The position numbers were made by a program, and so were the translations under genes. The notes below the pieces were generated by a model. The model saw only the letters and a program-made list of their open reading frames with translations. It had not been told where the DNA came from and ran no database searches. This document shows positions 2,010 to 61,164 of a stretch of 64,000 nt of DNA, piece after piece (within the stretch, counting starts at the first letter, position 1; each line of letters opens with the position of its first letter). This DNA comes from Flavisolibacter ginsengisoli DSM 18119. Lineage in GTDB: Bacteria; Bacteroidota; Bacteroidia; Chitinophagales; Chitinophagaceae. The stretch is from assembly GCF_900129295.1 (NCBI RefSeq), contig NZ_FQUU01000001.1, positions 372,001-436,000 of the forward strand. The letters are read 5' to 3'.

Positions 2010-3617
2010 ATGAAAAGGATCCTTTCCTTTTTTGCAATAACTGCCTGCATCCATACTATTTATGCCCAACCCTCAAATGATACCCTGGGGACACTGGTAG
2101 CGCAAAAGGAAAATATCATTACCTCCTCCACCGTCATTAAAATTGAGAACCTTGGATGGAAGATCAATTCTGAACTGGCTGAATTAAGGCCAACCATTTC
2201 AGCAGATGGTAATCTTTTATTTTTCATTTGCGAGAATCACCCCCTGAATACTAAGTTCAATTCTGTCCGTAATTCACAGGACATCTGGTATTCCGAAAGA
2301 GATAGTTTTGGCCGCTGGAGTGAGGCAAGACATATGGGATACCCATTAAATACTTACCATTATAATGCGGTTTACTGGGTTTCGCCTGATAATAACCGTA
2401 TTCTTATACGCAATGCTTTTATCAATGGAGATTATTATGGTAATGGTGTAAGTATGAGCCACCGGCAAGCAAATGGCAGGTGGAGCCCACCGGAGATGCT
2501 CAAGATCCGCAATTATGCAAAATACGACCGGGGAAGACAAAATGGTGCCACAATGGCACATGATGGACAGACCCTATTACTTTATATGACTGAGGAAAAA
2601 GGTGGCGTTAATAACGACCTGTATGTATGTTTTTTGTTGCCGGACGGAACGTGGTCAGAACCTAAAACACTGGGTAAAAAGATCAATCTCCCGGATTATG
2701 ATGAAATGACTCCCTACCTGGCCTCAGATGGTGCCACCTTATATTTTAGCAGCAACCGCCCAGGCGGACTTGGAGATAACGATATCTGGATGACAAAACG
2801 ATTGGATAAGACCTGGCAAAAATGGAGTGAACCGGTAAACCTGGGAGCTCCGATCAACACCCCTGAATGGGATGCATTCTTTACCCTTGATGCCGGTGGC
2901 GAATATGCCTATATGACCAGCAGTGACGGAGGCTATGGCGAAAGTGATATAGTGCGGGTAAAACTTCTTGAAAGAGAAAAGCCTGACCACGTGGTACTGG
3001 TTAGCGGAAACGTATACAATAAAAAGACATTGCAACCTCTTAGTGCTTCGCTTGTGTATGAAACACTCCCTGATGGAATCGTTGCGGGCAATGGCATGTC
3101 CAACCCGGGTGATGGAGCATTTAAAATGGTGTTGCCTTACGATAAGAATTACAGCATCAGGGCCACCGCTGATAAATTTTTCGCCATATCTGAGAACCTG
3201 AACCTTGACTCATTAGTAAAGGCGGGATATAAAGAAATTCATAAGGACCTGTACCTGGTACCTATAGAAATAGGCCAGGTGGTGAGATTAAACAATGTAT
3301 TCTTTGATTTTGACAAGTGGAACCTGAGGCCTGAATCATATGTAGAACTGGACAGGGTGGTAAAACTGCTGCAGGAGAATCCCGCAATTGAGATAGAAAT
3401 GAGTGCGCATACGGACAGCTATGGTTCGGATGACTATAATTTCAAGTTGAGCGATAACAGGGCAAGATCAGTAATGGAATACATACTTTCCAAAGGAATT
3501 GCCACCACGCGCATTACTTCAAAAGGATATGGAGAAACCAAACCAGTGGTTCCGAATGACACTGACGAAAACAGGCAGCTTAACCGCAGGGTAGAGTTTA
3601 AAATCCTTAAAAATTAA
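2010..3617 (+). CDS. OmpA-family envelope protein with PD40 beta-propeller repeats
   Basis: The 535-residue protein starts with a signal peptide (residues 1-19, ending IYAQ). It then carries several PD40/WD40-like strands of the type SSNRPGG..DNDIW (about 65-320), a carboxypeptidase-regulatory-like Ig fold (about 330-400) and a C-terminal OmpA peptidoglycan-binding domain (about 425-535) with FDFDKWNLRPES, HTDSYGSDDYN and NRRVEFK. This architecture is common in Bacteroidota, where such proteins link outer membrane and peptidoglycan, often beside T9SS or porin-like partners. No PorP/SprF-like partner lies next to it. It is monocistronic, with a terminator immediately downstream. Confidence 0.93.
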   Translation: MKRILSFFAITACIHTIYAQPSNDTLGTLVAQKENIITSSTVIKIENLGWKINSELAELRPTISADGNLLFFICENHPLNTKFNSVRNSQDIWYSERDSFGRWSEARHMGYPLNTYHYNAVYWVSPDNNRILIRNAFINGDYYGNGVSMSHRQANGRWSPPEMLKIRNYAKYDRGRQNGATMAHDGQTLLLYMTEEKGGVNNDLYVCFLLPDGTWSEPKTLGKKINLPDYDEMTPYLASDGATLYFSSNRPGGLGDNDIWMTKRLDKTWQKWSEPVNLGAPINTPEWDAFFTLDAGGEYAYMTSSDGGYGESDIVRVKLLEREKPDHVVLVSGNVYNKKTLQPLSASLVYETLPDGIVAGNGMSNPGDGAFKMVLPYDKNYSIRATADKFFAISENLNLDSLVKAGYKEIHKDLYLVPIEIGQVVRLNNVFFDFDKWNLRPESYVELDRVVKLLQENPAIEIEMSAHTDSYGSDDYNFKLSDNRARSVMEYILSKGIATTRITSKGYGETKPVVPNDTDENRQLNRRVEFKILKN

Positions 3618-37293: not shown

Positions 37294-37916
37294 ACCCTAA
37301 TCTAAAAGATCACCACTATTGAAACCAATGACAGGAAATTGAAAGATCACTGACAGGTATCAACCATTTCCATTTGATTTATTATACTGATTAATATGCT
37401 TAATAAATCGCATATCCTAAACTGGTAAAAGCATATTAAATAAGTATTGATTAAAATAAATCCCATTTAAATACATCCGGGTCTCATTAACCCTATTTAC
37501 CAGGGTTGTGAATGATAATTTGATCAACTCCAGGGTATTACACCATATAGGCCTGGGATTCCGTTGCCGGTCATTTATACTTTACTTCTGATTTCTTTAT
37601 TCCCTGGCTATACTTACTCCCTACCTCCGGTATAGCTACTGTATAGAAACGGTATGGATACTCCGTGCGGGCACGGAGTATCCATACCGTAGATAGGGAG
37701 TTCTTAGTGCTTTGGTATACTGGAAATAAGGAGAAGTACCGCAGCACTATAGAACAAGCATAATCGAATGCTATGGGCAGCAAAGAACAAATAATGCTAT
37801 GATCTGATAGGTTTATTGAGGTGATTGGGAGCTATTCCTGGCTGGAGTACTCTATAATATCAAGGAAATGAATGTATTATAATTACCTGGTTTTCAACAA
37901 GAAAACTTGTCAACCT
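37294..37916. other. Long intergenic region holding hairpin copy A
   Basis: These 623 nt lie between the propeller gene (reading away to the left) and the stop of yigZ. Besides the hairpin at 37616-37703 nothing was recognised. A 70-codon frame through the hairpin is an artefact of the inverted repeat. Confidence 0.6.
37616..37703. repeat. Intergenic hairpin repeat, copy A
   Basis: A perfect 20-bp inverted repeat (37649-37668 / 37671-37690) with a 2-nt centre is enclosed by an outer 8-bp helix (ACTCCCTA 37616-37623 / TAGGGAGT 37694-37701). The inner stem is homologous to the hairpin at 60910-60948: four differences in 18 aligned positions, each matched by the complementary change in the other arm. 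It has no T-tract and no near gene, so it is not a simple terminator. Confidence 0.85.
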
Positions 37917-60777: not shown

Positions 60778-61164
60778 TAATGGCAATACTGCATTCTAAG
60801 ACAACTTAAAAATTGTTTTAAAGGGGTTTCCAAAACATCTAATAATATACGCAGGCCCATTCTTCTCCCTATCTACTATATACTAACCCCCTATCTCCTG
60901 TATAGGAACAGTATAGATACTGCGTGATGATCACGCAGTATCTATACTTCAGATAGCTAGTTGATAGGGCGAAGCTATACAGTTGCCACGGCACAGGTAC
61001 ATCCCAAATGAAGTATTGACAGGCTATAGAAAGCTGAATAACCTGGTAATGCCAAGATGGCTTTCACCAATTGAACTATACATAAATGAAATTGTGAGGT
61101 TTGTGCAGGGGAATATTGTGGAAATAGAGGTGCCCCCTCGAGGAGGGCGATACCTCTTATTAGA
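60778..61164. other. Intergenic region holding hairpin copy B
   Basis: These 387 nt contain the hairpin repeat at 60889-60969 and, just beyond the catalase stop, an imperfect hairpin (61126-61157, AGAGGT...ACCTCT around CCCTC/GAGGG) that may end catalase transcription, though it lacks a T-run. A 109-codon frame (60983-61312) enters katE antisense and is rejected. Confidence 0.55.
60889..60969. repeat. Intergenic hairpin repeat, copy B
   Basis: A perfect 19-bp inverted repeat (60910-60928 / 60930-60948) around a single G, enclosed by CCCTATC (60889-60895) / GATAGGG (60963-60969). It is homologous to copy A at 37616-37703, with compensatory changes at all four differing stem positions. Confidence 0.85.

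Follow-up and report, generated by a model that had tools for sequence, protein, structure and literature searches.

In the REP families treated in PMC6006769, each tnpAREP is paired with a REP family of its own. The parC site of plasmid R1, as presented in PMC4949242, consists of two sets of five repeats that are bound by ParR, and the 22-bp probe described in the parC work contains two 11-bp repeats. Here, we analysed a 64-kb stretch of the genome of Flavisolibacter ginsengisoli DSM 18119 (the window), which carries two similar hairpins, named copies A and B. The nearest known biology is that of REP elements with their RAYT proteins (PMC6006769, PMC3733652), and the nearest known layout is that of parC of plasmid R1. 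Our analysis points, with moderate probability, to a phased DNA-binding array that belongs to a mobile gene cassette and also occurs in solo copies, a function that we infer from sequence comparison.

The original prediction described a hairpin with four compensated substitutions between the two copies, together with an outer helix in copy A. Both stems are borne out, with 20 of 20 matching arm positions in copy A and 19 of 19 in copy B, and copy A folded as RNA reaches z = -5.83 compared to 200 shuffles. The four differences between A and B indeed involve changes in both arms. However, the inner C-G/G-C difference is fixed between two subfamilies whose loops are also of unequal length, and it is therefore inherited rather than an independent compensation within a family. 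The outer helix (37616-37623 with 37694-37701) is complementary in copy A, but over 26 aligned copies its columns pair no better than shuffled ones (59.3% vs 59.3%). These columns are in fact 11-bp iterons in inverted orientation, and the hairpin is the central part of a larger DNA element (Table 1). The earlier observation is thus confirmed and its interpretation partly supported; the iteron arms and the partner gene family described below had been missed.

Table 1. Palindromes and iteron arms of copies A and B (positions in the window).
Feature	Positions	Strand	Description
Copy A central palindrome	37649..37690	.	Type C core GATACTCCGTG-CGGG-CACGGAGTATC at 37657-37682, plus flanking stem
Copy A left arm	37607..37650	-	Four outward 11-bp iterons GTTTCTATACA GTAGCTATACC GGAGGTAGGGA GTAAGTATAGC; chain score 34.3
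Copy A right arm	37689..37732	+	Outward 11-bp iterons GTAGATAGGGA GTTCTTAGTGC TTTGGTATACT GGAAATAAGGA (last one weak); chain score 25.0
Copy B central palindrome	60910..60948	.	Type G core GATACTGCGTG-ATGAT-CACGCAGTATC at 60916-60942
Copy B left arm	60855..60909	-	Four to five outward iterons GTTCCTATACA GGAGATAGGGG GTTAGTATATA GTAGATAGGGA GAAGAATGGGC; chain score 35.2
Copy B right arm	60949..60992	+	Outward 11-bp iterons TCAGATAGCTA GTTGATAGGGC GAAGCTATACA GTTGCCACGGC; chain score 31.7

In each copy of the element, the palindrome is flanked on either side by an arm of about 4-5 degenerate 11-bp iterons. The two arms are inverted relative to each other, and their units read outward in strict register with a consensus near GTAG[A/C/G]TA[G/T][G/A]G[A/C]. 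The first iteron unit, GTATCTATACC, is located inside the stem. Over 94 arms, the information per 11-bp unit declines outward from 10.4 to 9.6, 7.6, 5.1, and 2.2 bits and then to 0.8-0.95 bits, against a random baseline of 0.27. Using a unit model trained with copies A and B left out, exactly four iteron arms are detected in the 64-kb window, all of them at the two hairpins, compared to a mean of 0-0.25 arms, depending on the threshold, in 20 shuffled windows. In copies A and B, the units are too degenerate to pass the cut-off of the lag-11 periodicity scan introduced below; these copies were recognised through the unit model. The only region of the window flagged by the lag-11 scan is an array of 11-bp units of another sequence at 1644-1742 (GATATCCCGAG, GATAAGCCGAC), which is accompanied by an inverted copy and lies ~265 bp upstream of the open reading frame at 2010-3617. 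This array suggests a second iteron type in the same genome.

A covariance model built on 26 copies, of the kind the original prediction had called for, retrieves 47 clear members in the genome, after which the scores drop from 43 to 26.6 bits. With 47 copies and such a clean gap, the hairpin is beyond chance. BLAST with copy A gives 49 matches and misses copy B, which is recovered by the covariance model. The 47 members fall into two subfamilies: 23 of type C, with a 4-base loop, including copy A, and 24 of type G, with a 5-base loop, including copy B. The loop sequences ATGAT and ATCAT, compared for spacer flipping relative to the gene, are one base apart. According to a crude ORF caller, 40 of the 47 copies lie outside any frame of at least 70 aa and six lie inside frames of 70-84 aa, while the copy at L084 overlaps a 398-aa frame.

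Among the 26 of 47 copies that were aligned, the central 18 pairs covary, with 16 both-sides changes compared to 5.8 +/- 1.9 in shuffled alignments (0 of 500 shuffles as high); no covariation of the outer arms was found against shuffles of the same copies. Independent mutation of the arms, which had been named as evidence against the original prediction, is seen in some copies, and further copies nonetheless exist. CACTAAG is present in one arm, uncompensated, in four of the 47 copies, and L030, L032, and L035 carry a different block in one arm only. At L087, a whole block is changed in both arms, so the earlier caution that gene conversion could keep the arms identical was well placed. Homogenisation of inverted-repeat arms through template switching between them is described in yeast in PMC8604942. 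Arm exchange or template switching, combined with inheritance, fits the observed arm changes at least as well as pair-by-pair compensation.

Many type G copies adjoin an open frame of 200 aa. By tblastn, a gene of this partner family is found at 22 of the 47 copies, 149-402 bp away and always downstream of the element and pointing away from it. All 16 linked type G copies are associated with the 200-aa branch of the family and all six linked type C copies with a divergent branch; the gene is broken or a fragment in three of the 22 cases (two of 16 type G, one of 6 type C). For the remaining 25 elements, tblastn (E 1e-3) detects no family gene in the surrounding ~2 kb, or less at contig ends. 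Copies A and B belong to these solo elements. Protein searches of the same genome returned no further members of the 200-aa or the divergent branch, and the contigs of three weaker relatives (C53, C34, and C32) carry no element. A number of partner-gene units are found less than about 1 kb from a contig end (C8, C9, C20, C29, and C35), as if they broke the assembly, so that the true copy number may be higher. A second, GGAATATCGAACAGATGAACAAGGAATATCGAATGATG-like repeat is seen between palindrome and gene at L028, L076, L077, L085, and L090. Many type G units also contain tandem CGGNCAAA-like repeats in the interval from the iterons to the gene, and such repeats occur beside solo iteron arrays in another genome, G295 (L100, L103, L104, and L233). 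Runs such as TTTGTAGTTTGTAG or TTTCTGGTTTTTGG are present directly 3' of the stop codon of the partner gene (e.g. L038, L089, and L090).

The proteins of the family share an N-terminal region of ~100 residues (MAKQ.G..K.TGTI..I.FYK..DGYL.R). The members scanned match no Pfam (12 members), NCBIfam (three 200-aa members), PHROG (two members), PADLOC, or PDB sequence family above chance, and neither a catalytic motif nor a known domain was found in them. Matches to SduA (E 0.015) and to PDB 9r2r (E 0.04) are sub-threshold and were taken as chance. Of 11 small-branch proteins, nine have a pI of 8.9-10.4 and two have values of 5.6 and 6.8, and the pI of five 251-aa relatives ranges from 6.0 to 8.7.

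Comparison of 14 type G loci shows that the shared sequence begins in the gene-distal iteron arm and, in 13 of them, runs past the stop codon of the gene; it is interrupted in five of the 14. The one sharply bounded case is the recent pair L032/L035, with 95.6% identity over 941 bp and unrelated flanks. Here, the similarity sets in immediately beyond the distal iterons, about 60 bp ahead of the core, and breaks off shortly past the stop codon; no target-site duplication is visible by eye at these ends. Gene and element thus recur together, have been duplicated together, and are matched in subtype, although this matching could simply reflect the joint duplication. We consider it very likely that the element belongs to the gene-family system, and probable that the cassette is mobile.

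The element itself has a narrow distribution. At E 0.001, the element model hits three of 294 genomes of the window's bacterial family, and at the very loose E 10 it hits eight of 18 genomes of the genus, the own genome being included in both counts. One of the genus-mates, G306, has four element relatives with the same ACTCCGT/ACGGAGT core in the E 10 search. The exact core pattern has no match in the named genome collection, from which the own genome may be left out. The partner family is present in 106 of the 294 genomes and in 51 of 101 genera. In plasmid records, one relative was found on a 25-kb plasmid of Marivirga (NZ_CP129969.1:19142-19885), with 47.6% identity to the 251-aa branch and no annotated feature underneath. 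No relative was found in phage records, and protein alignments against named genomes and viral contigs confirmed none.

G306 has 28 matches to the partner family, and the 20 genes examined there can be grouped by sequence into three protein subfamilies. Each subfamily is preceded by an element of its own kind, and this holds for all 20 genes. These elements are TTACTCCGTAT repeats at 22-bp spacing (6/6), a CCGTA palindrome at -251 (3/3), and 11-bp GAGGTACAG iterons (11/11); since these motifs had been derived from five of the 20 regions themselves, the count is descriptive rather than an independent test. A palindrome is thus present in only one of the three subfamilies, and it is imperfect and was missed by a first hairpin scan of the 20 upstream regions, which found no such element. 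The same kinds of element recur without a gene, as solo palindromes and, in two of three hits from a scan of random stretches, as solo arrays. Between genomes, the unit changes in sequence. In G295 it reads AGGTATACTTT, which is seen by eye both ahead of a family gene (L163) and within solo arrays. A recurring frame or sequence like KTTYRQNAFNALNGVNG...KPTP adjoins iteron arrays at five G295 loci (L100, L102, L105, L234, and L237). At L073 and L074 (genus g24), a different palindrome core (GTCCATG/GTCCACG) occurs with apparent 11-bp units, and both genomes have family genes.

In autocorrelation analysis, the regions preceding family genes show maxima at lags 11 and 22 both in G306 (20 genes) and in other genus-mates (16 genes), and at lags 11, 22, and 33 for 19 usable genes from seven other genera (20 were fetched, one of them without upstream sequence). 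In this last set, the lag-11 excess of 0.213 is the highest of 28 lags. The lag-11 signal is absent downstream of the genes, within coding sequence (G306 and other genera), and further upstream (genus). A fixed cut-off of 0.64, which was set during the random-stretch scan after the G306 data had been seen, is passed by 25 of 56 family upstream regions (11 of 20 in G306, 5 of 16 in genus-mates, and 9 of 20 in other genera, counting the empty one). Among 183 intergenic regions drawn at random from four genomes, only 7 pass it (Fisher p 1.3e-12, relatedness ignored); this comparison covers at most 16 further genomes per set, with family genes taken from the top of the hit lists rather than at random and related genes treated as independent in the p-values. 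For seven of the 16 genes from genus-mates, the lag-11 score reaches only 0.39-0.57, and a 7-bp periodicity is also seen upstream in G306 (excess 0.162). The 19 upstream regions from other genera yielded no palindrome comparable to those of copies A and B, which indicates that the array, and not the palindrome, is the general feature.

Outside the window's bacterial family, the lag-11 excess is weak, at 0.032 for 10 loci of one family and 0.053 for five loci of others (of 30 loci returned, 27 were taken, eight were dropped because they had no recognised start, 19 were scored, and 17 averaged). The sole clear case there is L195 (genome G325, another bacterial family), where an array of 11-bp units precedes the gene for a 251-aa relative by about 690 bp. 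The single-copy relatives of G004, G070, and G087 are without arrays. Given this weak signal and the array-less relatives, the coupling of array and gene looks like a feature of the multicopy branches rather than of every relative.

These observations suggest a model in which copies A and B are solo copies of a dispersed element, with a near-perfect palindrome centring two inverted iteron arrays, that serves as the upstream companion of a multicopy family of genes for small proteins with a common N-terminal region. With iterons following each other at intervals of one helical turn on either side of the palindrome, the repeats have the layout of a cooperative binding site on double-stranded DNA. 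The phased array may thus bind a protein, most likely the one encoded next to it; whether it is the family protein itself that binds the iterons is, in our judgement, an even call. The resulting nucleoprotein complex would control the adjacent gene and mark or drive duplication of the cassette, and the solo elements may be copies mobilised in trans or left behind.

Two readings contained in the original prediction place the palindrome in other classes. If it were a structured small RNA or a UTR element, with the stem under RNA selection, the strong predicted fold and the central-stem covariation would be readily accommodated, but the copies match no Rfam family (in the window, cmscan at gathering thresholds reports one tRNA only) and the outer arms do not covary. 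G-T mismatches are not favoured over A-C mismatches in either orientation (13 to 9 in gene orientation over 22 copies, 21 to 24 over all 47), hence there is no sign of selection on one RNA strand. The both-arm block change at L087 and the fixed C-G/G-C subfamily difference point instead to arm homogenisation and inheritance. We therefore regard the RNA reading as highly improbable and action of the element as DNA as likely. A REP-like or MITE-like repeat mobilised in trans was the closest of the earlier options, since the copies are dispersed, largely genome-specific, and both solo and gene-linked; the RAYT partner it would call for is, however, unsupported. In its REP/REPIN form, in which a RAYT (Y1 tyrosine transposase), possibly of an atypical Bacteroidetes subclass, would move the element, this option can draw on the dispersed extragenic palindromes and on five Y1_Tnp matches, four of them over the cut-off. 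Against it, the 4-7 kb examined around the five Y1 matches (at L042 the upstream side ends at the contig end) contain no core and no iteron chain, and no similar hairpin lies within 1.2 kb of the Y1 loci. The polarity of the foot motif is also reversed, as none of the 94 strand-copies has GTRG (GT[AG]G) within 8 nt of its 5' foot and 43 of 94 have it at the 3' foot, and the recurrent neighbour belongs to another protein family. Movement by a RAYT thus appears quite improbable.

Alternatively, the element could be an ordinary operator or another part of the promoter region, to which an unrelated host regulator or a nucleoid protein binds. It would then have been copied only through duplication of the genes, with solo elements as remnants of lost genes. 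The location of 22 copies ahead of a gene, at a distance of 149-402 bp, would suit such a role, as would the one-turn phasing, which is compatible with cooperative binding by any protein, and the existence of some broken gene copies. This explanation accounts less well for the 25 solo elements without any gene trace (tblastn E 1e-3, about 2 kb), for the element type that tracks the protein subfamily in two genomes, and for a unit sequence that varies between genomes, which would not be favoured under a conserved host regulator. An ordinary operator is therefore rather unlikely, and we retain the phased array of a mobile cassette as the preferred reading.

If this reading is right, a widespread protein family gains a DNA partner, often recognisable by 11-bp-spaced repeats a few hundred bases upstream, and the function of the family becomes directly testable. 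The system would join RAYT/REP as a second case in which dispersed repeats are coupled to a partner protein. It would also illustrate that apparent covariation between two copies of a palindrome can stem from subfamily inheritance and arm exchange rather than from RNA. More speculatively, and in our judgement less likely than not, these loci represent a new self-spreading class of protein-repeat systems in Bacteroidota, whose members would each recognise the 11-bp array of their own subfamily, with or without a palindrome. Gene cassettes and solo arrays of this class would spread without a known transposase fold, and array and protein would diversify together between genomes.

Compared to known systems, the element resembles MITEs in its short, dispersed, lineage-specific, and non-coding copies, but no transposase with matching ends was found in a search that covered Y1 only, the L032/L035 pair lacks a target-site duplication recognisable by eye, and about half of the copies are part of a longer unit with a recurrent partner gene. 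With parC/ParR it shares arrays of about five 11-bp repeats adjoining the gene for a small protein, gene-linked here in 22 of 47 copies, ParR binding being known for R1. Unlike in R1 parC, the two sets flank a palindrome in opposite orientations and are found at 47 places in the chromosome, and the family profile has no convincing sequence match among solved structures. The likeness to REP/REPIN-RAYT systems (REPtrons) lies in dispersed extragenic palindromes that are both solo and gene-linked, with repeat subfamilies matched to the partner gene. In contrast to REPtrons, the partner here is not of the Y1/HUH type and is itself multicopy, the GTRG polarity is reversed, and an 18-20 bp stem is flanked by 11-bp iteron arms on both sides. 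Since membership among REP elements fails on the partner gene and on the foot polarity, we propose instead a partnership between a protein and its iterons, in which the cassette would be mobile and the solo elements derived from it.
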